Shown: positions 48,765-63,147 of the stretch, one piece after another
Layout of the letters: every line of letters starts with the position of its first letter
Position numbering within the stretch: position 1 is the first letter of the stretch
DNA from: Allobosea sp. CRIB-10
GTDB lineage: Bacteria; Pseudomonadota; Alphaproteobacteria; Rhizobiales; Beijerinckiaceae
Reading direction: 5' to 3'
NCBI RefSeq assembly: GCF_900112185.1
Contig: NZ_FOKP01000002.1
Coordinates: forward strand, 1 to 64,000
Length of the DNA: 64,000 nt
Translations under genes and position numbers: made by a program
Notes under the pieces: generated by a model
Told to the model about the DNA's origin: nothing
The model's input: the letters and a program-made list of their open reading frames with translations, nothing else
The model's database searches: none

Positions 48765-49197
48765 GATCCCCCAGCCGGGCGCTACGGAGGCCCTCTCCCC
48801 GCTCGCGCGCTACAAGACCATCCTGCGCCAGGTTCTGGACAACAGGCCGTCGGGAACCCGGCAGCGGCTGGCCGAGGCGCTCGGCAAGAACCGCAGCTTC
48901 ATCTCGCAGATCGTCAATCCGACCTACATCACGCCGATTCCGGCGCAGCATCTCGATACGATCTTCCAGATCTGCCACGTCACGCCGACCGAACGCGAGG
49001 CGTTCCTCGATGCCTATCGGCAGGCCCATCCCGGCCGCCTCGACGTCGCCAGCGGCCCACGCGCCTTGCGTCAGATCACGGTCTCCGTCCCGGACCTCGG
49101 CGACCCCGCTCTGAACGCCCGCGCGGACGCGCTGATCCGCACGCTGGCGACCGGCATTGCCGGCCTGCTGCCGGCCGACGACGAAGATGCTGAATGA
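48754..49197 (+). CDS. Small helix-turn-helix regulator within the Dha operon
   Basis: The 147-residue protein has an XRE-like helix-turn-helix (about 25-80: RQRLAEALGKNRSFISQIVN, PAQHLDTIFQICHVTPTERE) and a C-terminal part of about 60 residues without recognised motif. It is translated from an ATG 11 bases inside the enzyme I gene. It probably controls the operon from the TTTAGCGA repeat at 39940, either in response to a ligand or to the phosphorylation state of a PTS partner. Neither is shown by sequence. Confidence 0.75.
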   Translation: MSPEIPQPGATEALSPLARYKTILRQVLDNRPSGTRQRLAEALGKNRSFISQIVNPTYITPIPAQHLDTIFQICHVTPTEREAFLDAYRQAHPGRLDVASGPRALRQITVSVPDLGDPALNARADALIRTLATGIAGLLPADDEDAE

Positions 49198-49237
49198 CCC
49201 CGAAGAGGGCCGATATCGACGAGCGAGGGGAAACGCC

Positions 49238-50251
49238 GTGAAGAAGTTGATCAACACTGTCGACACGGTCCTGAGCGAGAGCCTTCGCGGGCTGGTGGCG
49301 ACGCATGGCGACATCCTGGCCCTTGCCGATGACGGCAAGTTCGTGCGCCGCAGGGACGTTCGTCGCGACAAGGTCGCGCTGATCTCCGGCGGCGGCTCCG
49401 GGCACGAGCCGCTGCATGTCGGCTTCGTCGGCCGCGGCATGCTCGATGCCGCCTGTCCCGGCCAGGTCTTCACCTCGCCGACCCCCGACCAGATGGTCGC
49501 GGCCGTCGCCGCGGTCTCCGGCGCGCCTGGAACCTTGTTCATCGTCAAGAACTACGAAGGCGACGTGATGAACTTCGAGATGGCGGCCGAGATGGTCGCC
49601 GGCCCCGTCGCCAGCATCGTCATCGACGACGACGTCGCGGTGAAGCCGTCGGCCCATTCGACCGGGCGACGGGGCGTCGCCGGCACGCTCGCGGTCGAGC
49701 GCATCGTCGGCGCCGCAGCCGAACAGGGGCGCGATCTCCAATCCCTGGCGGCGCTCGGGCGCTCGATCAATGGGCGCACCCGTTCGATGGGCGTCGCCCT
49801 CACCTCCTGCACCGTTCCGGGGGCCGGCCGACCCACCTTTTCCCTCGCGGAGGACGAGATGGAGCTGGGCGTCGGCATCCATGGCGAGCCGGGCTGCCGA
49901 CGTGTCGCGCTGGCCGGCGCCGACGAGATCGCCGAGGCGCTCCTCGCCCCGATCCTGAGCGAGCTGGCGCCGCGGCCAGGCGATCCTCTCCTGCTGATCG
50001 TCAACGGTTTCGGCGGTACGCCGACGATGGAGCTCTACCTGATGGCGAACAGCGCCAGGCGCATCCTCGCCGGTCGCGGGCTGGCACCTGCGCGCAGTCT
50101 CGTCGGATCCTACGTCACTTCGCTCGACATGGCCGGCTGCTCGTTGACGGTGACCACGATGGACGACGACGCGCTCATGCTCTGGGACGCGCCGGTCCAC
50201 ACGGCAGCCCTTCGATGGGGCATGCAGAACCCTGTGCCGAGCTCCGCCTAA
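49238..50251 (+). CDS. dhaK: PTS-type dihydroxyacetone kinase, substrate-binding subunit DhaK
   Basis: The 337-residue protein starts at GTG 49238 behind GAGGGGAAACGCC. It has H56 in GGGSGHEPLH, D109 in KNYEGDVMNF and the covalent-hemiaminal H215 in GVGIHGEPG, close to E. coli DhaK H56, D109 and H218. It binds a short ketose and, with DhaL and DhaM, phosphorylates it from PEP. The subunit order here (L, M, HPr, EI, regulator, K) is unusual. Erythrulose or another C3-C4 ketose is as plausible as dihydroxyacetone. Confidence 0.9.
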   Translation: MKKLINTVDTVLSESLRGLVATHGDILALADDGKFVRRRDVRRDKVALISGGGSGHEPLHVGFVGRGMLDAACPGQVFTSPTPDQMVAAVAAVSGAPGTLFIVKNYEGDVMNFEMAAEMVAGPVASIVIDDDVAVKPSAHSTGRRGVAGTLAVERIVGAAAEQGRDLQSLAALGRSINGRTRSMGVALTSCTVPGAGRPTFSLAEDEMELGVGIHGEPGCRRVALAGADEIAEALLAPILSELAPRPGDPLLLIVNGFGGTPTMELYLMANSARRILAGRGLAPARSLVGSYVTSLDMAGCSLTVTTMDDDALMLWDAPVHTAALRWGMQNPVPSSA

Positions 50252-50313
50252 TTCTCCGTATCCCATCCAGGCCGACAGGCGCCTTTACCGCCCACTTCAC
50301 AGCAGGACTTCGC

Positions 50314-51951
50314 ATGCGACATTTCATCAACAGCAGCGATGCGATCGTGACCGAGGCCCTCGACGGGCTGCTCCTCGCCTCGGCCGATAGCGGTCTCGCC
50401 CGCCTGGACGGCTATCCGGAGATCAAGGTCGTCCTCCGCACCAACCGCAATCCGGATCATGTCGCCGTCATCTCCGGCGGCGGCTCCGGCCATGAGCCCG
50501 CCCATGCCGGCTTCGTCGGCGAAGGTCTCCTCGACGCGGCCGTCTGCGGCGACATCTTCGCCTCGCCGACCGTCGATGCCGTCCTCGCGGCCATCCTCGC
50601 CGTGACGGGGCCAGCCGGATGCCTGCTGGTCGTCAAGAATTATGTCGGCGACCGCCTGAATTTCGGCCTTGCCGCCGAAAAGGCCCGCGCGCTCGGCCGC
50701 AAGGTCGAGATGGTCATCGTCGCCGACGATGTCGCGATCCCGGACAATCCCCGGCCGCGTGGGATCGCGGGCACCATCTTCGTTCACAAGGCAGCGGGCT
50801 TCGCCGCGCGCGCCGGCCTACCCCTGGCGGAGGTTCGGGCTGCCGCCGAAGAGGTTGCCCGCTCGGTCCGCTCGCTCGGCGTCACCACCACGAGCTGCAC
50901 GATCCCCGGGCGCGCTCACGAGGATCGGATCGGAGACGGCGAAGCCGAGCTCGGGCTCGGCATCCACGGCGAACCCGGCTCGGCGCGCATTCCGCTACCG
51001 CCGGTCTCCGAGCTGGTCGCCAGGATGCTGGCGCAGTTCGGCCCGGACATTCAGGCGGCGCCGCAGCTGGCGCTGCTGGTCAACAATCTCGGCGGCGTGC
51101 CGGCGCTCGAAATGGCGCTCGTCACCCGGGCGGTCCTCGTAAACCCGCTCGGAGCCCGCATCACCTGGGTCCTTGGACAGGCGGCGGCCGTCACGGCGCT
51201 CGACATGCGTGGTTTCTCGCTGTCGCTGATGCCGGTCGACGATGCGAAGGTCGCCATGTTGAGGGCTCCCGTCGCCTCGCCGGCATGGCCCGCCGCCCGC
51301 CGCGCGGCGCAGGCGGTTCCGACGCTCGCCGTGCCGGCAGAGCTATCGCAGTCGCCGGCCAAGGCCACGGCAAACCCGGCCGCTCGCGCCCTTCTTGAAA
51401 AGATCTGCTCGACGCTGATCGACGCACAGTCCGAGCTCGATGGCCTCGACGCGCGTGTCGGCGACGGCGACACCGGCTCGACCTTCGCCGCCGCGGCCCG
51501 CCGCGTTCGCGAGGACCTTGACGACTTGCCGCTCGCGGAGTCGGGAGCGCTTTGTCGCGCGCTGGCCGAACGCCTGTCCCGCGTCATGGGCGGTTCGAGC
51601 GGCGTGCTCTTGTCCATCTTCGTCGCCGCGGTCGGGGTGGCCCTCACGGAAGGCGCGGAGATGCCGAAGGCGCTCCAGGCCGGCGTCGAGCGCATGCAGC
51701 ACTATGGCGGGGCACGGACGGGCGATCGCACGATGCTCGACGCGCTCGTGCCGGCCATCGAAGCTCTCGCGGCCGGGCTCGGCCTCGCCTCGGCGGCGAC
51801 GGCCGCTCGGGCCGGTGCTGACCAGACCGCGAGCATGCCCGCAGCGCGGGCCGGACGCTCGAGCTATGTCGGCAGCAAGGACCTGCTCGGCGTCGTCGAT
51901 CCCGGCGCCGAAGCCGTCGCCCGGGTCTTCAGCGCCGTTGCGGGGACCTAG
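50314..51951 (+). CDS. ATP-type fused DhaK-DhaL ketose kinase
   Basis: The 545-residue single chain joins a DhaK domain (1-330: H60 in GGGSGHEPAH, H218 in LGIHGEPG) to a DhaL domain (about 355-545). The latter has aspartates D379, D384 and D386 in LDARVGDGDTGST, the GDGDTG form of ATP-dependent enzymes such as the Citrobacter freundii kinase (552 residues). It needs no PTS partner. It follows the PTS-type dhaK by 62 bases. Homologues include D- and L-erythrulose kinases, so the two kinases may handle different ketoses or stereoisomers. Confidence 0.9.
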   Translation: MRHFINSSDAIVTEALDGLLLASADSGLARLDGYPEIKVVLRTNRNPDHVAVISGGGSGHEPAHAGFVGEGLLDAAVCGDIFASPTVDAVLAAILAVTGPAGCLLVVKNYVGDRLNFGLAAEKARALGRKVEMVIVADDVAIPDNPRPRGIAGTIFVHKAAGFAARAGLPLAEVRAAAEEVARSVRSLGVTTTSCTIPGRAHEDRIGDGEAELGLGIHGEPGSARIPLPPVSELVARMLAQFGPDIQAAPQLALLVNNLGGVPALEMALVTRAVLVNPLGARITWVLGQAAAVTALDMRGFSLSLMPVDDAKVAMLRAPVASPAWPAARRAAQAVPTLAVPAELSQSPAKATANPAARALLEKICSTLIDAQSELDGLDARVGDGDTGSTFAAAARRVREDLDDLPLAESGALCRALAERLSRVMGGSSGVLLSIFVAAVGVALTEGAEMPKALQAGVERMQHYGGARTGDRTMLDALVPAIEALAAGLGLASAATAARAGADQTASMPAARAGRSSYVGSKDLLGVVDPGAEAVARVFSAVAGT

Positions 51952-52520: not shown

Positions 52521-54128
52521 ATGGCGAGGATCGGGCAGGAGCCGCGTCAGAGGGTACCGCGAACCGCATTAGAAGCGCTCGCGTCCTCCGTCGAGCGCAA
52601 TTCCGACAAGACGGCCCTGGTCGGTAGCGGCGCGCGGATGACCTTCCGGGAGCTGCAGAGCCGGTCGGACAATCTCGCGTCGGGCCTGCTGGCCGCCGGG
52701 CTTCGTCCGGGCGATACGGCTCTGTTCCAGATGGGAACCATTCCCGATACCGTCGTCGCACTCTTCGGCTGTCTCAAGGCCGGGATCGTTCCGGTCTGCA
52801 CGCTGCCGCAGCATCGTGGCCACGAGATCCGCGCGATCAGCGCCATCACCAAGCCGCGCCTCCACATCGTCCAGGCAGACTATCCGTCGAGCTTCGACCT
52901 CGTTGGGTTCGCCCGGGAGATGCGGGAGGAGATCGCGACGCTCAGCCATACCATGGTGGTGCACGGCACCGCTGCCGAGGGCGAACTCGATTTCGCGCGA
53001 ATGGTCGAGATGCCTCGCGATGCCGCCATCGACGCGATACGGCCCGGTCCGCACGATGTGCTGATGCTGCAGCTCTCGGGCGGGTCGACCGGCCTGCCCA
53101 AGGTCATTCCGCGATTGCACGGCGAGTACATGAGCTACGTCGCCTCCTGGGAGCACCTGCTGGGGCTCGGCCCGGACGATGTCCATCTCTGGTCCCTGCC
53201 GCTCATCCACAATGCGGCGATGATCTACCACCTGTTTCCGGCGATCAGCGGCGGGCGAAAGCTCGTGCTGATGCAGCGCTTCGACGCGCGGGAGTTCTTC
53301 ACTCTGATCGAAACCGAGCGTGTCACCTATTCGGGCAGCATCGGCCCGGTCGCCAGCGGCATCCTGGCTTATGATCGCATCGCCGACCACGACATCTCGT
53401 CATTGCGCTTCCTGACCACGCTCAGCGGCGCGGACCGGATCGAGGCCCATGTCGGCGTCCCGGTGATGAACGCCTACGGCATCACGGAGGGATTGCTGAC
53501 CTGCGCACGGCCGACGGCATCCCTCCATGCCCGGCATATGACGGTCGGCATTCCGGCCTCGCCGCTCGACGAGATTCGCCTGCTCGATCCATCCGGCAAC
53601 GAAGTTCCGCTTGGAGAAAGCGGCGAACTCTGTTTTCGCGGTCCCTCGCTCTTCGCCGCCTATATGGGCGGTGCCGAGCAGATGGATGGGAAGCTCACCC
53701 CGGACGGCTTCTTCCGGACGGGCGACCTGATGCGCGCCCACCTGATCGACGGCGAGCGTCACTACTCCTTCGAAGGGCGCCTGAAGGACAATATCGATCG
53801 CGGCGGCGAGAAATTCGGAACGGAAGACATCGAAGCGCTGATCAACCAGCATCCAGCCGTCGCCGATTCCAAAGTCGTCGCCATGCCCGACCCGCAATAT
53901 GGCGAGAAGGCCTGCGCCTATCTCATCGCCGCCCCCGGTGCGGCCCTGCCCGATGTCAGGGAGCTCGGAGCATTCCTGAGCGCGCGCGGTCTGGCGAACT
54001 TCAAGCGACCCGAGCGGATCGAAGCGATCGACGCCTTTCCAACCACCCGGGTCGGCAAGCTCGACCGGCAGGCCCTGCGCGACCTGATCGCAGCCAAACT
54101 TCGGGACGAGTTGGGCCATCTCTCCTAG
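52521..54128 (+). CDS. Aryl-acid adenylating enzyme / aryl-CoA ligase (EntE/DhbE-like)
   Basis: The 535-residue ANL-family protein has the P-loop SGGSTGLPK (186-194), ITEGLLTCARPT, the hinge FEGRLKDNIDRGGEKF and the catalytic lysine K513 in TTRVGKLDRQALRD. The substrate pocket reads LPLIHNAAMIYH, close to the HN motif of EntE and DhbE, which bind 2-hydroxylated benzoates. No siderophore genes are near, whereas a flavin monooxygenase, thioesterase and VOC protein are. It therefore probably makes salicyl-CoA or a similar thioester for catabolism. It ends at a strong terminator. Confidence 0.83.
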   Translation: MARIGQEPRQRVPRTALEALASSVERNSDKTALVGSGARMTFRELQSRSDNLASGLLAAGLRPGDTALFQMGTIPDTVVALFGCLKAGIVPVCTLPQHRGHEIRAISAITKPRLHIVQADYPSSFDLVGFAREMREEIATLSHTMVVHGTAAEGELDFARMVEMPRDAAIDAIRPGPHDVLMLQLSGGSTGLPKVIPRLHGEYMSYVASWEHLLGLGPDDVHLWSLPLIHNAAMIYHLFPAISGGRKLVLMQRFDAREFFTLIETERVTYSGSIGPVASGILAYDRIADHDISSLRFLTTLSGADRIEAHVGVPVMNAYGITEGLLTCARPTASLHARHMTVGIPASPLDEIRLLDPSGNEVPLGESGELCFRGPSLFAAYMGGAEQMDGKLTPDGFFRTGDLMRAHLIDGERHYSFEGRLKDNIDRGGEKFGTEDIEALINQHPAVADSKVVAMPDPQYGEKACAYLIAAPGAALPDVRELGAFLSARGLANFKRPERIEAIDAFPTTRVGKLDRQALRDLIAAKLRDELGHLS

Positions 54129-54141
54129 AATCGATCAGAAG

Positions 54142-54179
54142 AAACCGGCCGGACGCGAACTGCGCCCGGCCGGTTTTTT
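54142..54179 (+). terminator. Strong rho-independent terminator after the aryl-CoA ligase
   Basis: AAACCGGCCGG (54142-54152) and CCGGCCGGTTT (54166-54176) form a perfect 11-bp stem followed by a run of six T. It can serve both this gene and, through its AAA side, the convergent 86-residue gene. Confidence 0.85.
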
Positions 54180-54195
54180 GTGTCTGTCTTGCGCG

Positions 54196-54456
54196 TCAGA
54201 GCGGCTTGTTCGTCCCGACGACTCGGACCTCGTCACGGCCCCAATCGGCGATCTCGCCATTGAGGCCACCGGTGAAGATGCCGTACCAGACGGCCGGCTT
54301 CATCTTCATGGCCTTGCGATTGAAGCGCAGTTCCGTCGACGCCTCGATCGTCCAATAGCCCTTGACCGGACCGGAGACCGTGACCCCGTCCTGCCCCTCG
54401 GCGGTTTCGACCATCGGCCGAAACTCCGGGACGTCGACCACATAGACGGTGATCAT
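54196..54456 (-). CDS. 86-residue protein coupled to the VOC protein
   Basis: The short protein starts MITVYVVDVPEFRPMVETAE and ends GRDEVRVVGTNKPL. Its ATG overlaps the VOC stop by 4 bases. It has predicted beta strands and no membrane segment, signal or metal-binding cluster. I do not recognise the family. Tight coupling suggests it works with the VOC protein as subunit or accessory protein. Confidence 0.7.
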   Translation of the reverse strand: MITVYVVDVPEFRPMVETAEGQDGVTVSGPVKGYWTIEASTELRFNRKAMKMKPAVWYGIFTGGLNGEIADWGRDEVRVVGTNKPL

Positions 54457-55166
54457 GCCGGCGCTCCCTTGTAGGCGTCGACGAGCTTGGCCTTGCGGCG
54501 CCAGATGGTGTCGATATCGGCGAGCAATCTGTTCTCGGCACGCGCTTCGGCTTCGGTCTCCATGGCGGCCTGGATCGTCAGCCTGGCGTCGACCTCGTCG
54601 ATCACCTCGGTCTCGCGCAGGCGCAACGTGACCTCGACGGGGTAGCCGTTGGGATCGGTGAAATAGATCGATTCCAGGATCTCGTGCTTGGTGTAGGGCG
54701 AGACCTTGATGCCCCTGGCCTCCAGGGTTTCCTTCCATTGGATGAGTTGCGCTTCCGTCTCCACCGCCCAGGCGGTGTGGGTGGCGAAATAGAAGTGGTG
54801 CTCCTCGGGCACGTATTTCTCGGGGCGCTGCGAGCCGATGTAATAGAAGAAGGCGATCGTCGCGCCTTTGCCGGCATCGAAGAAAAAATGCAGGAAATCG
54901 TGGTGGCCGGGCGGCCCCCAGCCGCGGGCGCTGATCGCATGCACCAGCGGCAGGCCGAGGATGTCCCGATAGAACTCCACGGTCTCGTTCAGCTTCCAGG
55001 TCGGCCGCGCCGTGTGGTCGACGCCGTTCAGCGACAGTTGCACGCCGTCGAGGCTCGCATGCCTGAGGCCGGCCACGGCGCCGTCGCTGATGCCGTAAGC
55101 CTCATTGAACGTCTTGGCGGACGAGGCATCCTCGCGCGTGCCGAGCCGGTCTGTCGTGTCGGTCAT
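54453..55166 (-). CDS. VOC-superfamily (glyoxalase/extradiol dioxygenase-type) protein
   Basis: The 237-residue protein has paired beta-alpha-beta-beta-beta modules with candidate metal ligands in GVDHTARPTWKLNETVEFYR, the HHFYFATHTAW strand and PNGYPVEVTLRL. A helical tail (about 180-237) is rich in E, A and R. Such proteins open rings or isomerise acids. Here it may cleave a dihydroxylated aromatic product, but isomerase or lyase function is possible. It is transcribed away from tetR with an ATTGA-N7-TCAAT site in the gap. Confidence 0.8.
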   Translation of the reverse strand: MTDTTDRLGTREDASSAKTFNEAYGISDGAVAGLRHASLDGVQLSLNGVDHTARPTWKLNETVEFYRDILGLPLVHAISARGWGPPGHHDFLHFFFDAGKGATIAFFYYIGSQRPEKYVPEEHHFYFATHTAWAVETEAQLIQWKETLEARGIKVSPYTKHEILESIYFTDPNGYPVEVTLRLRETEVIDEVDARLTIQAAMETEAEARAENRLLADIDTIWRRKAKLVDAYKGAPA

Positions 55167-55211
55167 CTCGCTACTCCCTTGCCATCATTTGCATCTGGAA
55201 CATAGTCAATA

Positions 55212-55228
55212 ATTGAGACTATATCAAT
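55212..55228. promoter_or_regulatory. TetR-type operator candidate ATTGA-N7-TCAAT, VOC/tetR intergenic region
   Basis: Perfect arms flank GACTATA, 45 bases before the VOC start and 48 before tetR. This placement suits simultaneous repression and autoregulation. Confidence 0.6.
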
Positions 55229-55275
55229 ATTTGTTTCCTGCTGGCTCCGCAATTCATGCCATGTCAATATCGGGC

Positions 55276-56010
55276 ATGGACGCAGAGAAGGTGAAGATTC
55301 CCCGCGGGCGCGGCCGCCCGCGGCTCGATGGGCAGAACGATGCCGGGGTCGTCAACCGCGAGGTTGTCGTCGACCTCGCCTATGATCAGGCAAAGCAACA
55401 ATCCCTGGGCGATATTTCGTTTGTCGGCCTGGCGAAAGAACTGGGCGTGGCTCCGGGCGCCCTGCACTATCATCTCGGCACGAAGGACGATTTGATATCT
55501 GCGATCCTGAACCGCTTCTACAAGGAGCTGCTGGCCAGGCTCGCCAAGCTTCCCGCAGGCTCCGACTGGCGCGACCGGATCGGCAACTTCGCGACTGCGC
55601 TGCGGGATGCCTATGGCGCCCATCGTGGCGCGGCGGAGCACATTCTCATGCATGCGAAGTTTCGCGTGTTTCAGAAGGTCCGCGAGGGAGAGACCGACTA
55701 CGGCGCGCTCTACCTCGACAAGGTCTTTTCGATGTTCAGGGAAGCGGGCTTCGACGCCACGCAGACGGCGCAGTTCTATCACGCTTTGGCGCTGCACTGC
55801 CTGACCGCGGCCGGTTCGGAAGCCTCGCGGCTCGCGCCGGTCGAGCATGAGGCTTTCCTGCTCAAGAAGGCCGACAGCTACCCGAACGGCACGATGCCCG
55901 GGCTGAAATACGCCCTGCGCCAGTTCGCGCATGTCAACGCGAAGGAAACCTTCCGGATCGGGCTGGAGGCCTTGCTCGATCGCTTCGCCGTGGAGCGGGC
56001 CAAAGCGTAG
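55276..56010 (+). CDS. TetR-family regulator of the aromatic-CoA genes
   Basis: The 244-residue protein has a basic arm (KIPRGRGRPRLDGQ), a helix-turn-helix (about 22-70) with ISFVGLAKELGVAPGALHYHLGTKDDLISAIL and a helical ligand domain. The HYHLGTKDDL turn is the TetR recognition-helix signature. The start could be ATG 55276 or 55261; neither has a strong ribosome site. It is divergent from the VOC gene. By analogy it would release DNA on binding an aromatic acid or its CoA thioester; inferred. Confidence 0.85.
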   Translation: MDAEKVKIPRGRGRPRLDGQNDAGVVNREVVVDLAYDQAKQQSLGDISFVGLAKELGVAPGALHYHLGTKDDLISAILNRFYKELLARLAKLPAGSDWRDRIGNFATALRDAYGAHRGAAEHILMHAKFRVFQKVREGETDYGALYLDKVFSMFREAGFDATQTAQFYHALALHCLTAAGSEASRLAPVEHEAFLLKKADSYPNGTMPGLKYALRQFAHVNAKETFRIGLEALLDRFAVERAKA

Positions 56011-56060
56011 TCGATCGGAACCTCGGCCCGCATTTCCATCCCGACCGCAGTCAACGGCGC

Positions 56061-56747
56061 CTACACACCGAGATAGCGGTCGAGGATCTCGTGGGTCAGC
56101 GTCGCGCTCGTTCCTTGATGCACCGTCCTGCCTTTTTCCAGGATGAAGCAGCGGTCGACGGTCGGCAGCAGTTCGGACAGGGTCTTGTCGACGACGAGAA
56201 TGGACTGCCCGTTGGCCTTCAGCTTGCGGATCACCGACCAGATGTCCTGACGGATGATCGGCGCGAGCCCTTCCGTCGCCTCATCGACCACGAGCAAGCG
56301 CGGATTGGTCATCAGCGCCCGTCCCACGGCCAGCATCTGCTGCTCGCCGCCCGACAGCGAGCGGGCATATTGGTTGCGGCGCTCGCCGAGGCGCGGAAAG
56401 AGCTCGACGACGCGGTGCTCGCTCCAGAGGCCGGGCCGGGCTGCGGCGACGAGGTTTTCGTGGACGGTGAGGTTGGAGAAACAGCGCCGCCCCTCCGGCA
56501 CCAGCCCGATGCCGAGGCGCGCGATATGGTGGGCGCCCATGCCGGCGACTTCGCGGCCATCGAAGCGCACACGACCGCCGCGCGGCCGCGACAATCCCAT
56601 GATCGAGCGGATCGTGGTGGTCTTGCCCATGCCGTTGCGCCCCATCAGGGCGACGACCTCCCCTTCCCCGACATCGAGCTCGATGCCGAACAGCGCCTGC
56701 GATGCGCCATAGAAGGTTTCGAGCCCGGAAACTGAGAGCAGGCTCAT
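56061..56747 (-). CDS. livF: Second Liv-type ABC transporter, ATPase LivF
   Basis: The 228-residue ATPase has Walker A GRNGMGKTTT, VPEGRRCFSNLTVHENL, signature LSGGEQQMLAVGRALM, Walker B LLVVDEATEGLAP (DEA instead of DEP) and VDKTLSELLPTVDR where the usual EQN histidine-loop region stands. Its start overlaps the livG stop by 4 bases. Last gene of livH-livM-livG-livF in transcription order. Confidence 0.9.
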   Translation of the reverse strand: MSLLSVSGLETFYGASQALFGIELDVGEGEVVALMGRNGMGKTTTIRSIMGLSRPRGGRVRFDGREVAGMGAHHIARLGIGLVPEGRRCFSNLTVHENLVAAARPGLWSEHRVVELFPRLGERRNQYARSLSGGEQQMLAVGRALMTNPRLLVVDEATEGLAPIIRQDIWSVIRKLKANGQSILVVDKTLSELLPTVDRCFILEKGRTVHQGTSATLTHEILDRYLGV

Positions 56748-57493
56748 GGCGTATCTCCCAGATAGGCGCTGCGTACATCCGCATTGCGGCGGATCTCCTC
56801 GACCGTTCCTGTGGCGATGACGCTGCCATAGACGAGCACCGATATCCGGTCGGCCAGCGCGAAGACGGCGTCCATGTCGTGCTCGATCAGAAGGACCGGG
56901 GCTTCTCGCCTGAGCCGGTCGAGAAAGGTCGTCAGCGTCTTCGCGCTCTCCGGCCCCATGCCGGCCATCGGCTCGTCGAAGAGGAAAGCCTTCGCGCCGA
57001 GCGCCAGGGCCATCGCGATCTCGAGCTGGCGTCGCTCGCCATGCGAGAGCTCGGCGGCCGGAATCCGCGCGCGTGCTGCGAGCCCGGCCCGTTCGAGCGC
57101 CGCCATGGCGGGCTCGATCAGCGAGGCGTCGTTGCGCACGGGACGAATGAAGCGGAAGCTCGACCCCTGCCGCGCCTGCACCGCGAGCATCACATTGCGC
57201 AGCGCCGAGAAATCCGGGGCGAGCGAGGAAATCTGGAAGGTGCGCCCGAGCCCGAGACGGGCGCGGCCGGCCATGTCGATACCGGAGACGTCTTGCCCGT
57301 CGAAGAGGATCGATCCGGAATCCGGCTTCAGAAAGCCGGAGATCAGATGCATCAAGGTGCTTTTTCCGGCGCCATTGGGGCCGATCAGCGCATGGACCTC
57401 GCCAGGCCTCAGATCGATGCTGACGTCGTTCGTCGCCTTCAGCGCACCGAAGCTCTTCGTGAGATTGCGGATCTGGAGCAGCGGCTCAGCCAT
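56744..57493 (-). CDS. livG: Second Liv-type ABC transporter, ATPase LivG
   Basis: The 249-residue ATPase has Walker A GPNGAGKSTL, LGRTFQISSLAPDFSALRNVMLA, signature LSHGERRQLEIAMALALG (H in place of the second G), Walker B AFLFDEPMAGMGPES and LIEHDMDAVFALADR. It overlaps livM by 8 bases. Part of a likely aromatic-acid importer. Confidence 0.9.
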   Translation of the reverse strand: MAEPLLQIRNLTKSFGALKATNDVSIDLRPGEVHALIGPNGAGKSTLMHLISGFLKPDSGSILFDGQDVSGIDMAGRARLGLGRTFQISSLAPDFSALRNVMLAVQARQGSSFRFIRPVRNDASLIEPAMAALERAGLAARARIPAAELSHGERRQLEIAMALALGAKAFLFDEPMAGMGPESAKTLTTFLDRLRREAPVLLIEHDMDAVFALADRISVLVYGSVIATGTVEEIRRNADVRSAYLGDTP

Positions 57494-58466
57494 GACGAAG
57501 CCTCCCCGCCAGCATGCCGATCAGCCCGCCGCGCGCGAACAACACCACGCCGAGCAGGATCAGCCCGAGGAAGAGCTGCCAGCGCTCGGTCAACCCGCCG
57601 AGCGCGAATTCGAGGAAGACATAGAGCATCGCGCCGGCGACCGGGCCGAACAGCCGGCCGACGCCGCCGAGGATCACCAGGACGATCAGCACGCCCGACA
57701 TGTGCCATGACAGCATCGAGGGGCTGACGAACTTGTTGAGGTCGGCATAGAGGGCGCCGGCCAATCCGGTGAGCCCGGCCGAGAGGGCAAAGGCGACGAG
57801 GCGCACACGGAGAGGCGCAACGCCGACCGCGGCGAGCCTGATCTCGTTCTGCCGGGCGGCTTCGAGCGCCGTGCCGAAGCGCGAATTGCGCAGGACGGCG
57901 AAGGCGGCGAGCCCCGCCATCAGCATGGCATAGCAGATGAGGAAGAAGGTCAGCGACTCCGCCGTATCGAGCCCCGGCAGCGTGTTGCGCACCGACAGCG
58001 CCAGCCCGTCCTCGCCGCCATAGGCCGGCCAGGAAATCGCGAAATAATAGACCATCTGAGCGAAGGCCAAGGTGATCATGATGAAGTAGACGCCGCTGGT
58101 GCGCAGACTGATCGCGCCGATCGGCAGGGCGAGGAGCGCAGCGAGGCCCATCGCCACGATCCAGATCACCGGCATGAGATCGCTGGCGGACAGCGTGAAG
58201 GGCACGGCGAAGATCGGCTCCGCATTGAAGGCATGGGTCGCCATGACGCCGGCGACATAGCCACCGATGCCGAAGAAGGCGGCATGGCCGAACGACACCA
58301 GTCCGCCGACGCCGAGCGCCAGGTTGAGGCCGGTCGCCGCGAGGCCGAGCACGGCCATGCGTGTCGCAAGATCGATGTAGAAGGGCTCGTCGAGTGCGAA
58401 GGCGACGAAGGGCAGTGCCAGCAGGAGGAGCGCCAGCGCGGCGTTGAGAATGCTCTCGCGGCTCAT
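57486..58466 (-). CDS. livM: Second Liv-type ABC transporter, permease LivM
   Basis: The 326-residue membrane protein has GVGGLVSFGHAAFFGIGGYVAGV (about 52-74), SLRTSGVYFIMITLAFAQMVYY, ALEAARQNEIRLAAVGV and LYADLNKFVSPSMLSWHMSG, all LivM hallmarks. The start is ATG 58466, 2 bases after the livH stop. Confidence 0.9.
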   Translation of the reverse strand: MSRESILNAALALLLLALPFVAFALDEPFYIDLATRMAVLGLAATGLNLALGVGGLVSFGHAAFFGIGGYVAGVMATHAFNAEPIFAVPFTLSASDLMPVIWIVAMGLAALLALPIGAISLRTSGVYFIMITLAFAQMVYYFAISWPAYGGEDGLALSVRNTLPGLDTAESLTFFLICYAMLMAGLAAFAVLRNSRFGTALEAARQNEIRLAAVGVAPLRVRLVAFALSAGLTGLAGALYADLNKFVSPSMLSWHMSGVLIVLVILGGVGRLFGPVAGAMLYVFLEFALGGLTERWQLFLGLILLGVVLFARGGLIGMLAGRLRHG

Positions 58467-58468
58467 GG

Positions 58469-59389
58469 TCAGGCGCTCCCCGTGAACAGGCCGCGCGGCT
58501 TGAAGGCGAGGACCAGCGCCATCACCACATAGATAAGCATGGCCGCGACCGCCCCGCCGACCAGCGCGCCCTGAGCCGGTCCGAGGACGGCGCCGAACAG
58601 CTGGGGCAACAGGATTCGGCCGAGCGTATCGACGACGCCGACGATGAGCGCGCCGACCAGCGCGCCTTCGATCGAGCCGATGCCACCGATGACGATGACG
58701 ACGAAGGCGAGGATCAGGACCGGCTCGCCCATGCCGACCCGGACCGACTGCAACGCGCCGATCATGGCGCCGGCGAGCCCGGCCAGGGCGGCCCCGAGCG
58801 CGAAGACGATCGTGTAGAGCCCGTTGATGTCGACACCGAGCGCGCCGATCATTTCGCGGTCGTTCTCGCCGGCGCGGATGCGCATGCCGAGCCGCGTCTT
58901 CGAGATCAGGAGCCAGAGCCCGAGCGCCACCGCGATGCCGACGACGATGATCGCGAGGCGATAGACCGGATATTGGCCGCCGCCCGGCAGGGCGATCGAG
59001 CCGGACAGGACGGGCGGCGCGTTGAGATAGAGCGGGACGGAGCCGAACAGCCAGCGCGTCGCCTCGGAGAAGATCAGGATCAATGCGAAGGTCGCCAGCA
59101 CCTGGTCGAGATGGTCGCGGCCGTAGAGCCGCCGGATCACCAGGACCTCGACCAGCGTGCCCGCCGCAGCGGCCGCAGCGAGACTGGCGACGAGGCCGAG
59201 CCAGAAGGAGCCGGTGGCGGCCGCGACCGCGGCACAGGCGAAGGCCCCGATCATGTAGAGGGAACCATGGGCGAGATTGATCAGCCCCATGACCCCGAAG
59301 ACCAGGGTCAGCCCGGCCGCCATGAGGAAGAGCATGACGCCGAACTGGAGACCGTTCAGAGTCTGTTCGACGAGAAGTGCGCTGGACAC
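58469..59389 (-). CDS. livH: Second Liv-type ABC transporter, permease LivH
   Basis: The 306-residue membrane protein starts at GTG 59389 (SSALLVEQTLNGLQFGVMLFL), with AAAGG upstream; 24 more in-frame residues to 59461 are polar and unlikely. It has GLTLVFGVMGLINLAHGSLYMIGAF, MRIRAGENDREMIGALGV and IGGIGSIEGALVGALIVG, typical of LivH. It lies 144 bases after the binding-protein gene. Confidence 0.87.
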   Translation of the reverse strand: MSSALLVEQTLNGLQFGVMLFLMAAGLTLVFGVMGLINLAHGSLYMIGAFACAAVAAATGSFWLGLVASLAAAAAAGTLVEVLVIRRLYGRDHLDQVLATFALILIFSEATRWLFGSVPLYLNAPPVLSGSIALPGGGQYPVYRLAIIVVGIAVALGLWLLISKTRLGMRIRAGENDREMIGALGVDINGLYTIVFALGAALAGLAGAMIGALQSVRVGMGEPVLILAFVVIVIGGIGSIEGALVGALIVGVVDTLGRILLPQLFGAVLGPAQGALVGGAVAAMLIYVVMALVLAFKPRGLFTGSA

Positions 59390-59533
59390 GGCGGGCCTTT
59401 CCGCAAAAGACCGGAGGATTGGTGTCAGGAGGGCCGCTCGCTGTCGGACGCCACGCGGCATGCGTGACGGCTGCCGGCCTTCGTCTGACGATGGGGCCGG
59501 CCCGCAAATGCTCGAGCCCTCGGCGTGGCTACG

Positions 59534-60673
59534 TCACATCTTGCAGTCTTTGACGTAGGCATCCTGGTGAGCGGTGAAGGTCTTGCTGACGAGCTTGTTG
59601 GTCAGCGCGCCGTCGACCTTGACCACGTCGCGGACATAAACGTCCTGGATCGGGTGGTGGTTAAGGCCGAAGCGGAAGCTTCCCCGGACAGACTTGAAAT
59701 CGGCCGCCTCTAGGGCGGCGCGGAAGGCGGCGGCGTCCTTCACGCTCGCCTTCGCGACCGCCGAGAGCAGCAGGTTGGCGGTGTCGTAGCCCTGGCTCGC
59801 ATAGATCGACGGCCGGCGCTTGTACTCCGCCTTGAACCCTTCGACGAAGGCCTTGTTGGCCGGGTTGTCGAGATCCTCGGACCATTGCGAGGTGTTCTTC
59901 ACGCCGAGCGCGATGTCGCCCATGGCGCCGAGGACGTCCTGGTCAAGCGAAAAGCCCGGACCGGTGATCGGGAGCTTCACCCCGGCCTGCGCATATTGCT
60001 TCATGAAGGCGATGCTCATGTCGCCCGGCAGGAAGAAATAGACGGCATCAGCGCCGGAAGCACGGATCTGCGCGATCTCCGCCGCGTAGTCGGTCTGTCC
60101 AAGCTTGGTGTAGAGCTCGCCGGCCAGCTCGCCCTTGTAGTAGCGCTTGAAGCCCCTCAGCGCATCCGTGCCGGCCGGATAGTTCGGCGCAAGAATGAAC
60201 ATCTTCTTGTAGCCGGCCTCATTGGAATAATTGCCCATGGCCTCGTGCATCGCGTCGTTCTGCCAGGAGACGTTGAAGTAGAACGGGCTGCACTTCGCCC
60301 CCGCCAGCGGCGAAGGGCCGGCATTCGGCGACAGATAGAACTTCTTCTGGCCGACGACACCGGGCACCACCGCCATGGCGAGGTTGGAATAGAGGATGCC
60401 GGTCAGCACATCGACCTTGTCGGCCTTGATCACCTTCTCGGCGAGCTGAACCGCCCTCGCCGGCTCGCCATTATCGTCCTCGATGACGAGCTGGACGTCC
60501 TTGTTGCCGGACTGCTTCAGCGCCAGCAGAAAGCCGTCCCGCACCTCGATGCCAAGCCCGGCGAGCCCGCCGGACAAGGTCGTGATCATCCCCACCTTGA
60601 CGGGCTCGGCGAGAGCGGCGGTCGCCACGCTCGCGGACAGCGCCAGGATCCCGACGGCCAACATTCTGGACAT
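59534..60673 (-). CDS. Second Liv-type ABC transporter, periplasmic binding protein LivK-like
   Basis: The 379-residue protein has a signal peptide (MSRMLAVGILALSASVATAALA) and the type I binding fold: VKVGMITTLSGGLAGLGIEV, FYLSPNAGPSPLAGAKCSPF and ASQGYDTANLLLSAV. The start ATG 60673 follows GGGGAGAAACACA. It is first of the five transporter genes and follows the maleate-isomerase gene by 58 bases. Relatives import benzoate-like acids, which suits this cluster. Confidence 0.87.
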   Translation of the reverse strand: MSRMLAVGILALSASVATAALAEPVKVGMITTLSGGLAGLGIEVRDGFLLALKQSGNKDVQLVIEDDNGEPARAVQLAEKVIKADKVDVLTGILYSNLAMAVVPGVVGQKKFYLSPNAGPSPLAGAKCSPFYFNVSWQNDAMHEAMGNYSNEAGYKKMFILAPNYPAGTDALRGFKRYYKGELAGELYTKLGQTDYAAEIAQIRASGADAVYFFLPGDMSIAFMKQYAQAGVKLPITGPGFSLDQDVLGAMGDIALGVKNTSQWSEDLDNPANKAFVEGFKAEYKRRPSIYASQGYDTANLLLSAVAKASVKDAAAFRAALEAADFKSVRGSFRFGLNHHPIQDVYVRDVVKVDGALTNKLVSKTFTAHQDAYVKDCKM

Positions 60674-60731
60674 TGTGTTTCTCCCCATGAGTTTTCTTGG
60701 TTTGCGGCGGCGTTGGCGCGGCTTGCAGGCT

Positions 60732-61493
60732 TCAGGCGGCGACGGCCAGTCCCGGGGCGAGCGCAGCTCCGGCGCCGGGGGCAACCGGTTCGAGGGCCAC
60801 GGATTTGAGCATCGCCCGGACGGTGCAGGCCGCGGCCGAGATGACGGGAATGCCGAGAGCGGCCTCGACCGGTGCCAGCGCCGCCAGCGAGGGCATCTGC
60901 ACGCAGGCCGACAGGACGACGACATCGACGCCGCGCGTATCCAGGCGCTTGACGTCCTCGATCAGCGCCCTGGGATCGCGGGCGGCGACGGCGAGATTGT
61001 CCTCGATCTCCAGCGCCAGGCTGTCATGGACCGTGAAGCCTTCGTTCTCGATATAGGCCGTCACCTTCGCGGCCAGCGGCTTCATGTAGGGCATCAGCAG
61101 GCTGACGCGCCTGGCGCCCATCTCCTTCAGCCCGTCGACCAGGGCTCCGGCCGAGGAGACGACCGGGATAGCCTTGCCTTCCCCGGCAACGGCGCCTTCG
61201 AGGTTCGTCTTCGAGACGCGGTGATAGCCGAGCCCCTGGCTCATGATCGCGACGAGGCAGGCATAGCCCATCACATCGACATCGGCGTCGGCGAGCTCGC
61301 GTGCACAGCGCAGGCTGTCGCGATCCATGGCGGCGAGCTCTTCAGCCGTGACCTTCTTCATGCGCATGCGGCTGGAATGGAAGGTGAAGCGCTCCGGCCG
61401 GATCGTCTCCCGGGCGCGCAGCATCGCCGGGATCTCGGTCTCCATCGTGATGTTCGAGCTCGGGACGATCTGTCCGATCCGATAGGTCTTCAT
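60732..61493 (-). CDS. Maleate cis-trans isomerase
   Basis: The 253-residue Asp/Glu-racemase-superfamily protein starts MKTYRIGQIVPSSNITMETE, as in NicF-type maleate isomerases. The two catalytic cysteines are C79 in GYACLVAIMSQG and C197 in VLSACVQMPSL. It converts maleate to fumarate for the TCA cycle. Maleate arises in gentisate/maleylpyruvate hydrolysis and in pyridine (nicotinate) degradation, so this gene narrows the end of the pathway. Its start overlaps the thioesterase stop by 4 bases. Confidence 0.88.
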   Translation of the reverse strand: MKTYRIGQIVPSSNITMETEIPAMLRARETIRPERFTFHSSRMRMKKVTAEELAAMDRDSLRCARELADADVDVMGYACLVAIMSQGLGYHRVSKTNLEGAVAGEGKAIPVVSSAGALVDGLKEMGARRVSLLMPYMKPLAAKVTAYIENEGFTVHDSLALEIEDNLAVAARDPRALIEDVKRLDTRGVDVVVLSACVQMPSLAALAPVEAALGIPVISAAACTVRAMLKSVALEPVAPGAGAALAPGLAVAA

Positions 61494-61999
61494 GCCTTGT
61501 CCTCCGGCTGATGGGGATGGGCCGCCGCATAGGCTTCGAGCCGCTCCCGCAGCGCCTGCGGCAGCACCACGCCGGCCTTGCTGACGCGATCGATGGTGAT
61601 CGGGGAGATGCGGGCGACGAAAGCGACCGGCCCTTGCCGCTTGCCTTCCGCCGCGACCAGCCGCGCGGTGATGTGCAAATCGAAGGTGCGGGAGCGGATC
61701 GCGCCGACCCACACCGCCATGTCGAACTGGCTGTCGAGCGGCAGGCGGCTGCGGAAATCGATCTCGACGCCGCGGATCGGAAAGTCGACGCCGGCGGCGG
61801 CTTTCATGGTGTGGATCGGGCCGCCGAGCATTAGGCTGATGAAGGCTTCGTGCGCCGATACGACATAGTCGAGGAAGCGCGGCGTATAGGCGATGCCGGC
61901 CGGATCACAGTCGCCCCAGCGGACGACGCGGCGGATCACCAGGGGCTCGTCGGAGATGATCTCCTCCGTCGCCGGGAAGAAGGCATAGGGCATCGTCAT
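61490..61999 (-). CDS. 4-hydroxybenzoyl-CoA thioesterase-family hotdog protein
   Basis: The 169-residue protein has the catalytic VRWGDCDPAGIAYTPRFLDY block (D32) of 4HBT enzymes, then a single hotdog fold. It should release an aromatic acid from its CoA ester. Its ATG overlaps the monooxygenase stop, giving the order monooxygenase, thioesterase, maleate isomerase. ATG 61993 is an alternative start. Together with the CoA ligase this suggests hydroxylation at the CoA-thioester level followed by release. Confidence 0.87.
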   Translation of the reverse strand: MTMPYAFFPATEEIISDEPLVIRRVVRWGDCDPAGIAYTPRFLDYVVSAHEAFISLMLGGPIHTMKAAAGVDFPIRGVEIDFRSRLPLDSQFDMAVWVGAIRSRTFDLHITARLVAAEGKRQGPVAFVARISPITIDRVSKAGVVLPQALRERLEAYAAAHPHQPEDKA

Positions 62000-63147
62000 C
62001 GCACGGCCCCTCCGGTCGCGGCGGCGCAGGCCGTCATGAATTGCGGGTAATCTGCGGCGACCCTGGCCGCATCGACGCGGCTGGTGCGCGTCAGGTAGCC
62101 GAAGGCGAAGTCGTAAGGGCCGTTCGCCGCCGCCATGTGCCGGCCCATATCCTCGTACCAGGTGTAGCTTTCGCGGGCGGCGCCGATCAGGATGTCGGCG
62201 GCGGGCTTGCGGCTGGCGACATAGGCGGCGAGCGCGGCCGGAATGTCGCGCGTCTGTTCGAGCGCGCTCACCAGCGCGATCGAATCCTCCATCGCGATCC
62301 TGGTACCCGAGCCGATCGAGAAATGCGCCCGCCGCACCGCGTCGCCGATCAGCACGCGATGGCCATGGGTCCAGCGCTCGTTCCAGACCGGCTGGAAATT
62401 GCGCCATTCCGACTTGTTCGAGATCAGTGGCCGGCCGTGAAGGTCGTCAGCGTAGAGCTGCTCGACGAAGGCCTTTCGCTCGTCGTCGGTCATCGTGCCG
62501 AAACCGCAGCCTTCCCAGGCGGCGCGGTCGCACTCCATCACGAAGGTGCACATGCGATCGGTGTAGGGGTAGTAGTGCGCGCAGAAGGCGCCGCCGCCAG
62601 CGCTCCGGAAGCTGAGCGTCGGCCGGTCGTGGCGCCGCTCCGCCCCGTACCAGGCGAAGGCATTGGACAATTCGCTGCCATGCGTACCGAAAGCGGCCGA
62701 ACTCATGGCGCGCAAGGTCGAGTTGGCGCCGTCCGCGCCGATGACCAGATCCGCATCGTCGAGGGCGGCGGTATCGCGGATGTCATCATGATGCGTGACG
62801 GTGACGCCGACCTCGGCGCAAAGCTCGTTCAAGAGCATCAGCAGCCGCAGCCGTTCGACCGCACCGCCATAGGCCTGCCCTTCAATCGAGACGGCCCGGC
62901 CGTTGAGGATGATCTCCTGATTGCCGAGCGGCTTGGTGATCCCCTTCAGACGCTCGAAGCTGTCGGCATCGGCGGCCGCCAGCTTGGCGAGCCCCGCTCC
63001 GGCGAGCACGACGCCGAAGCCGAAGGTCGCGTCGGGAGCGTTGCGCTCGTGAACATGGACCTCCACGCCAGGCAGGCGCTTGCGGGCGAGATAGGCGAAG
63101 TAGAGTCCCGATGGGCCGCCGCCGATGATGCTGATCTTCATATTCAT
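61996..63147 (-). CDS. FAD-dependent aromatic (acyl-CoA-type) monooxygenase
   Basis: The 383-residue class A flavoprotein has the FAD motif ISIIGGGPSGLYFAYLARK (5-23), a DLVIGADGANSTLR dinucleotide segment and RVLIGDAVRRAHFSIGSGTRIAMEDSIALV. The N-terminal GGGPSGLYFA with VHERN and the HYYPYTDRMCTFVMEC strand resemble the monooxygenase domain of salicylyl-CoA 5-hydroxylase and 2-aminobenzoyl-CoA monooxygenase rather than salicylate hydroxylase. ATG 63141 is an alternative start. An imperfect TetR-type site overlaps the start region. Substrate assignment is inferred from the ligase and thioesterase partners. Confidence 0.8.
   Translation of the reverse strand: MNMKISIIGGGPSGLYFAYLARKRLPGVEVHVHERNAPDATFGFGVVLAGAGLAKLAAADADSFERLKGITKPLGNQEIILNGRAVSIEGQAYGGAVERLRLLMLLNELCAEVGVTVTHHDDIRDTAALDDADLVIGADGANSTLRAMSSAAFGTHGSELSNAFAWYGAERRHDRPTLSFRSAGGGAFCAHYYPYTDRMCTFVMECDRAAWEGCGFGTMTDDERKAFVEQLYADDLHGRPLISNKSEWRNFQPVWNERWTHGHRVLIGDAVRRAHFSIGSGTRIAMEDSIALVSALEQTRDIPAALAAYVASRKPAADILIGAARESYTWYEDMGRHMAAANGPYDFAFGYLTRTSRVDAARVAADYPQFMTACAAATGGAVR

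Follow-up and report, generated by a model that had tools for sequence, protein, structure and literature searches.

A coenzyme A (CoA)-dependent route from salicylate to gentisate is encoded by the sdg genes of Streptomyces. Maleate cis-trans isomerase serves the catabolism of nicotinate in Pseudomonas, and effector proteins of the MmoB/DmpM type have, to our knowledge, hitherto been tied to di-iron monooxygenases. Here we describe a cluster of seven core genes at the end of a stretch of 64,000 nucleotides from Allobosea sp. CRIB-10 (NZ_FOKP01000002.1, positions 1 to 64,000; hereafter 'the window'), which is the start of a 461 kb contig (C45) in an assembly of 6.33 Mb reported to be 100 percent complete. 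A CoA-mediated salicylate-gentisate route with sdgC is described in Massilia, and the accessible part of that report mentions no VOC enzyme (PMC13215587). VOC dioxygenases of unknown function, one of them from Acinetobacter baylyi, appear in the accessible part of another report (PMC7118221). We recognised no description of this cluster or of a VOC-type gentisate dioxygenase in the literature that was searched, a weak negative because most subscription journals lie outside that search.

We propose that the products of the seven genes break down an ortho-hydroxy aromatic acid, with salicylate as the likeliest candidate, in a CoA-dependent pathway whose gentisate-like lower half has been replaced throughout, and we rate the chances of this proposal slightly better than even. 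An aryl-acid ligase (LIG) would convert the acid (salicylate) to its CoA thioester, a flavin hydroxylase (FMO) would introduce a second hydroxyl in the para position to the first, turning salicylyl-CoA into gentisyl-CoA, and a thioesterase (TE) would release the 2,5-dihydroxy acid from CoA. A VOC protein, the putative iron dioxygenase, together with an 86-residue protein (SMALL) as an effector-like subunit, would open the ring beside the carbon that bears the carboxyl group. An alpha/beta hydrolase (ABH) would then split the maleylpyruvate-like product into maleate and pyruvate, and an isomerase (ISO) would turn maleate into fumarate. The textbook parts that would be replaced are the cupin dioxygenase, the maleylpyruvate isomerase and the FAH hydrolase. 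Every one of these reactions is predicted, as are the metal, the identity of the substrate and the part played by SMALL.

An earlier note, made from the letters of the window alone, had suggested a salicyl-CoA/gentisate-like route with an unusual end. The order of chemical roles that it implied (activation, hydroxylation, release, ring cleavage and maleate disposal) is still the best reading, and we consider it fairly probable. For salicylate as the acid and gentisate as the ring substrate, we put the chance that these are the actual compounds at somewhat under one half. The six genes that it listed (ligase, FMO, 4HBT thioesterase, maleate isomerase, VOC and the 86-residue partner) all lie where it placed them. 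The list was incomplete, as the candidate for making maleate, ABH, starts outside the window and was missed.

Conservation of the seven-gene set

We scanned 84,980 species genomes and obtained 372 relatives of VOC, from which the best 80 loci were kept, so that the counts describe the nearest relatives. A gene was counted when its match, within the DNA around the locus, covered at least 40 percent of the query. VOC and SMALL were each present in 79 of the 80 loci, ABH in 77, the ligase in 75, the FMO in 74, the thioesterase in 60 and the isomerase in 57. These loci are partly non-independent (one Tistrella plasmid region appears twice, as L015 and L042, and in some cases two or three loci come from a single genome). 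On plasmids, VOC, SMALL and ABH were found in 9/9 loci, while each of ligase, isomerase and FMO (complete or partial) was found in 8/9, the eight being not always the same. Judged by VOC, the closest relative with a name is Rhizobiales bacterium 2SD (L023; 97 percent).

The linkage of the seven genes spans Alpha-, Beta- and Gammaproteobacteria and Actinomycetota. Genome hosts include Mesorhizobium, Nitratireductor, Bradyrhizobium, Paracoccus, Azospirillum, many Burkholderiales, Halomonas and Pseudomonas; plasmid hosts include Rhodococcus, Streptomyces, Tsukamurella and Mycobacterium. The co-occurrence of the core genes exceeds chance, and the constancy of the gene set despite its varying order argues for a single pathway. 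A search of 297 genomes from the order to which the window belongs found SMALL in one alone, that of the window itself; the cluster is thus patchily distributed and possibly mobile.

The upper module

LIG (52521-54128, plus strand) encodes an EntE/DhbE-like aryl-acid AMP/CoA ligase of the AMP-binding family. Its nearest curated model is DHB_AMP_lig (319 bits; cut-off 723.55), and it is closest to the solved 2,3-dihydroxybenzoate and salicylate AMP ligases. The HN pocket seen by the earlier note corresponds to His230-Asn231, a pair kept in all 88 ligases of VOC loci that were scored, which we take to sense the ortho-hydroxy carboxylate.

FMO (61996-63147, minus strand) is a stand-alone flavin aryl-CoA hydroxylase. 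Its best match, PRK08255 (salicylyl-CoA 5-hydroxylase/oxidoreductase; 306 bits, under the cut-off of 1078), covers positions 1-370 of a 768-position bifunctional model, that is, the N-terminal half. TE (61490-61999, minus strand) is a 4HBT_2-type thioesterase that overlaps both FMO and ISO by 4 bases each. ABH begins past the window, at 64431, and precedes FMO, TE and ISO on the same strand; these four genes probably form one transcript.

The VOC protein as a candidate ring-cleavage enzyme

VOC (54453-55166, minus strand) is a single-module dioxygenase candidate that matches the Glyoxalase family (E 5e-14). The residues of its proposed metal triad, H51/H130/E178, as well as H88, H93, H161 and Y168, are each invariant in 94/94 VOC proteins. 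The Glyoxalase match, the model of a fused relative and the invariant triad together give VOC the His-His-Glu arrangement of the VOC fold, the metal being predicted.

The closest solved sequence is PDB 9u42 (E 7e-17 with the single sequence and 7e-21 with the profile), which was also the first Foldseek row (26 percent identity in that alignment). Its function is taken from the title of the entry, 'Homogentisate 1,2-Dioxygenase from Acinetobacter', and the literature search found no paper for it. Of the seven residues, all but H88 (H51, H93, H130, H161, Y168 and E178) are identical in the alignment of the two proteins, so that the second-shell residues H93, H161 and Y168 are common to both. Like VOC, 9u42 is a single VOC chain carrying the proposed metal and second-shell residues; however, its chain is of 182 residues with no part aligned to SMALL, and its substrate has one carbon more than gentisate.

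A fused VOC-SMALL relative (L056) was modelled with a mean pLDDT of 89. In fold comparison its VOC part resembles catechol and biphenyldiol dioxygenases, that is, extradiol dioxygenases (5znh, Z 12.6, root-mean-square deviation (rmsd) 2.9 over 121 aligned residues; 1han, Z 11.3). We infer that VOC is an iron ring-cleavage dioxygenase acting with SMALL, for which oxygen-dependent cleavage is predicted. The suggestion in the earlier note that this pair cleaves the ring has gained an extradiol-type set of residues and a closest relative titled as homogentisate 1,2-dioxygenase, both at the level of sequence.

SMALL and its similarity to MmoB/DmpM effectors

SMALL (54196-54456, minus strand; 86 residues) is the constant partner of VOC. 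It comes after VOC in 88/89 loci by tblastn; in the remaining locus (L089) an 84-residue open reading frame (ORF) behind VOC, near the contig end, matches the SMALL profile (E 3e-17). The two are a single open frame in 46 of 88 loci and split in the other 42.

The SMALL of the window matched no Pfam or NCBIfam family at E 0.1, PF02406 included, and its sole PDB hits were a pair of cytochrome c chains (E 0.34 and 0.95). When 38 SMALL proteins were searched, PF02406 matched 11 of them with E values no higher than 1 (the best being 0.0019, and all under the gathering score); no other family matched more than 2, and no effector model of NCBIfam matched any. When the PDB was searched with the SMALL profile and hits up to E 10 were accepted, T4moD chains alone came up (E 0.24 to 0.31). 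We also ranked 18,475 ORFs, 50 of them labelled SMALL and 11 labelled DmpM, with four unlabelled SMALL ORFs (L116, L117, L089 and L017) discounted. With the DmpM profile, the first 11 non-DmpM ranks were all SMALL (E 0.055 and up), and with the SMALL profile, DmpM proteins filled 5/6 of the first ranks after the SMALLs (E 0.05 or worse).

A shuffle test was performed on 55 non-redundant SMALLs (median score 2.3 bits), one of the 88 (L017) having been dropped for a stop codon in its extension. The DmpM profile scored above 5 bits on 16 of the 55, compared to none of 55 after reversal and 4 of 1100 after shuffling; conversely, the SMALL profile did so on 8 of 13 DmpM proteins and on 1 of 1300 shuffled ones. 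With hhalign, the alignment of SMALL and DmpM extended over 79 columns at a probability of 14.6 percent, and its score of 21.5 was above those of 200 column-shuffled profiles (maximum 12.25) and of 33 real decoys (maximum 8.3). T4moD was absent from the fold matches listed for the fused model, where the SMALL part is barely covered. The genome of the window has no match to PF02406 or PF02332, nor have the control genomes, although PF02406 was matched in 8 of the 142 genomes of its search.

The weak reciprocal similarity of the profiles and the common size of ~85-90 residues suggest that SMALL is probably a remote homologue of the MmoB/DmpM effectors (T4moD) rather than a member of their family. 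The partners differ: these effectors work with a di-iron hydroxylase, whereas the neighbour and fusion mate of SMALL is VOC. We offer as a tentative idea, with the odds somewhat against it, that a mononuclear VOC-fold dioxygenase would need an effector of the MmoB/DmpM type, as a subunit or a fused domain, within a wholly rebuilt gentisate-like lower pathway.

The isomerase and the alpha/beta hydrolase

ISO (60732-61493, minus strand) belongs to the Amdase family, and its closest solved structure is the maleate cis-trans isomerase 4fq7, which it matches nearly full-length (residues 1-246 of 253, E 1.7e-86). It shares with the 4fq7-type enzymes Cys 79 and Cys 197, presumably the catalytic residues, and both are kept in 69/70 sequences, in agreement with the maleate isomerase proposed by the earlier note. 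Unlike the 4fq7-type enzyme, ISO is partnered by salicylate-type aryl-CoA enzymes.

ABH (63193-64431 in contig coordinates, 63193-64000 in the window; minus strand) is an alpha/beta hydrolase that crosses the window edge. Its proposed triad, S123-D353-H382, is conserved in 89 or 90 of 90 sequences, and the ABH of strain 2SD was modelled with a mean pLDDT of 90. Because of its genomic place and the need for a step that makes maleate, ABH may be a C-C hydrolase releasing maleate.

Comparison with ceh-type gentisate clusters

The earlier note saw no cupin gentisate dioxygenase and regarded one just outside the window as fatal to its reading. A search of the whole 6.33 Mb assembly with the gentisate 1,2-dioxygenase model TIGR02272 gave no match at E 0.001, the 26 matches to Cupin_2 not being examined singly. 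Among the ORFs on the side of the window, no FAH-type hydrolase or maleylpyruvate isomerase was recognised.

As a comparison set we used 18 FMO loci without VOC, nine of them on plasmids (ceh type) and nine others including L128. VOC, SMALL, ABH and ISO were found in 0/18 (E 1e-10), and a relative of the cupin gentisate dioxygenase in 9/18 (8/9 of the ceh-type plasmids and 1/9 of the others). Among the VOC loci, the window not included, a gentisate-type cupin was present in 1/89, FAH in 3/89 and a GST-type isomerase in 0/89; the sole locus with a cupin, from Streptomyces chartreusis, stands beside a gentisate cluster. The near-exclusive occurrence of the cupin and of VOC/SMALL/ABH/ISO indicates that the two lower modules hardly mix.

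The ceh-type route and the cluster are alike in having an aryl-acid ligase, a related stand-alone flavin salicylyl-CoA hydroxylase, a frequent thioesterase and uptake genes. However, the ceh-type ligase lacks the HN pair, whereas the VOC clusters have a ligase of the EntE class. The lower genes also differ: the cupin of the ceh-type plasmids is mostly accompanied by an FAH hydrolase and a maleylpyruvate/maleylacetoacetate isomerase, and in their place the present cluster has VOC with SMALL, ABH and the maleate isomerase.

The genome of the window contains a second FMO locus on contig C39 (~138497-140848; positions 8498-10849 of L128), which encodes a fused FMO protein of 783 aa. Its neighbours, judged from sequence, are an acyl-CoA-dehydrogenase-like gene, a crotonase-like gene, a MarR-like gene, a ligase and an MhqO-like two-domain VOC.

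Substrate and alternative explanations

Several observations weigh against the proposed pathway, the first of them concerning the hosts. We surveyed the host genomes of 50 of the 80 loci (the other 30 are isolates and metagenome-assembled genomes, some from genomes already included), and gentisate dioxygenase scored above the curated cut-off in 30/50 and gave some match in 41/50. The nearest relative, 2SD, has one full-length match (315 bits, below the cut-off). These numbers weigh against a simple replacement, for which a complementary distribution of VOC and gentisate dioxygenase was expected. In hosts that already own gentisate dioxygenase a second gentisate enzyme would be redundant, and another substrate is quite possible.

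The upper module raises a similar point. The HN pair is absent from 14/15 ligases of the FMO loci without VOC; the one ligase that has it comes from L114, a contig of 3.6 kb on which FMO and ligase stand alone; this locus has no further context and was counted as non-VOC in the FMO tree and the residue scoring but stands outside the 18-locus comparison. In a long-branched tree built with FastTree, the FMOs of VOC loci and those of non-VOC loci form nearly separate lineages (3 changes, compared to 17.7 by shuffling), and the FMO of the window is placed mostly apart from the ceh FMOs. The difference in ligase class and the separation of the FMO lineages fit a different substrate.

These data make it possible, at perhaps one chance in three or a little less, that the same chemistry acts on a relative of salicylate with positions 3 and 4 free. 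Examples are 3-hydroxypicolinate and salicylates substituted at position 6, which would yield 2,5-dihydroxy products that ordinary gentisate dioxygenase does not accept; maleate would still be formed, accompanied by another 2-oxo acid or, from the pyridine, by an oxalyl amide product. Such maleate-yielding acids were reasoned from chemistry. Besides the host survey, the ligase class and the FMO lineages, this explanation is favoured by the linkage of the VOC module, in the majority of the 80 loci, to an upper module of its own and by the ring-dehydrogenase-like, aldehyde dehydrogenase and GMC genes that flank some of them. Against it stand the much greater abundance of salicylate in the rhizosphere, compared with 6-substituted salicylates or 3-hydroxypicolinate, and the genome of the window, with its lack of a gentisate dioxygenase match. 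For the pyridine, moreover, no amidase is present among the annotated recurring flanking genes, no dedicated amidase search having been made. Salicylate is therefore the likeliest substrate, with a related acid as the second choice.

Three other substrates were considered and appear less likely. For anthranilate, cleavage of 5-hydroxyanthranilate would by reasoning give an amide and call for an amidase, and the genome has the FMO-OYE gene of C39 with its acyl-CoA-type neighbours, probably a cluster of the anthraniloyl-CoA type. For homogentisate, there is a match to the cupin homogentisate dioxygenase HmgA on contig C43. A hydroxypyridine route is suggested by the maleate isomerase, but no amidohydrolase was found among the annotated recurring genes; amidases and NicC/NicX were not searched for.

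The reaction of VOC is the next point to be weighed. 9u42 superposes badly on the whole model (TM 0.25, rmsd 17) and is not among the 50 listed fold matches of the fused model, so that its link to VOC rests on sequence. Methylmalonyl-CoA epimerases tie with the dioxygenases in Z (6bu2, Z 12.4), and the reaction is thus not decided by fold alone. VOC and SMALL might accordingly be responsible for an isomerase or lyase step, with the ring opened by another enzyme, for instance the flavin enzyme or a dioxygenase elsewhere in the genome. Thiol transferases (FosB rows) also score near the dioxygenases, and flavin hydroxylases that open rings are known. We nevertheless judge this explanation improbable, as the second-shell His and Tyr residues and the proposed metal triad agree with those of 9u42 and no other ring-cleavage candidate was seen among the ORFs of the cluster.

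Several further results count against the proposed pathway. No lower module of either kind was found in 7/18 comparison loci, and two others have only FAH (L103) or only the isomerase (L119). In the DNA around the 80 loci, ISO was not found at 23 and TE at 20. For ABH, the PDB sequence search gave no close solved relative, and its fold matches are esterases, lipases and peptidases. An ordinary gentisate route that ends at gentisate, with VOC, SMALL and ABH as unrelated neighbours, would agree with the 30/50 host genomes that have a gentisate dioxygenase over the cut-off. It is very unlikely, since VOC, SMALL and ABH stay linked with LIG and FMO across varied gene orders, and the window genome leaves the gentisate dioxygenase model unmatched.

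Genomic context

The ligase faces SMALL from the opposite side, and VOC with SMALL diverges from a gene for a TetR-type regulator (55213-56010, plus strand), a relative of which is present in 19/80 loci. A Liv-type ABC importer lies between this gene and ABH-FMO-TE-ISO. Its ORFs, all on the minus strand and with families judged from sequence, encode a LivF-like ATPase (56061-56747), a LivG-like ATPase (56744-57493), a LivM-like permease (57486-58475, start approximate), a LivH-like permease (58469-59461) and a substrate-binding protein (59534-60688, start approximate).

Two adjacent dihydroxyacetone-kinase-like genes, again judged from sequence, precede the cluster at 49157-51951. On the other side it is adjoined by genes for a MarR regulator, a flavin reductase and an HpaB-like oxygenase (64557-67218 of contig C45; 4557-7218 of L009), which may feed the pathway or be unrelated to it. 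Beyond the HpaB-like gene come another Liv-like importer and then a molybdenum-hydroxylase-like pair (~72.6-75.4 kb).

Recurring flanking genes were surveyed in 78 loci (L035 and L089 left out). A gene resembling aromatic-acid symporters was found in 23/78; one member scored 366 bits, under the cut-off of 418.55. Ketosteroid-dehydrogenase-like, GMC, aldehyde dehydrogenase, SDR and SnoaL-like genes flank, in varying sets, the loci L050, L052 and L055 of Pseudomonas and L069, L072 and L078 of Paraburkholderia. These flanking sets hint at an alicyclic or aryl-alcohol precursor. On the Pseudosulfitobacter plasmid CP069018 (L014), conjugative transfer genes flank the cluster, which adjoins a set with an intradiol dioxygenase and maleylacetate reductase. 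On the Mycobacterium avium plasmid pP7a (L017, 16307-18286), the FMO relative lies within a gene annotated as a heme-binding protein, apparently as a fusion with it.

Significance

Three features make this finding more interesting than common pathway variants: the cluster occurs widely, the partner of VOC is named in no family library, and the proposal is directly testable. If it is true, the plant defence hormone salicylate, or a close relative of it, would be consumed through this cluster by plant-associated, soil and marine bacteria, by a route that is invisible to annotation based on the cupin gentisate dioxygenase. It would explain how the pathway is completed in a genome that has a salicylyl-CoA-like upper module and no gentisate dioxygenase, and it would give a function to an unnamed family of 86-residue proteins and to an unnamed family of hydrolases. 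Control by effector proteins would then extend from di-iron monooxygenases to mononuclear iron dioxygenases.

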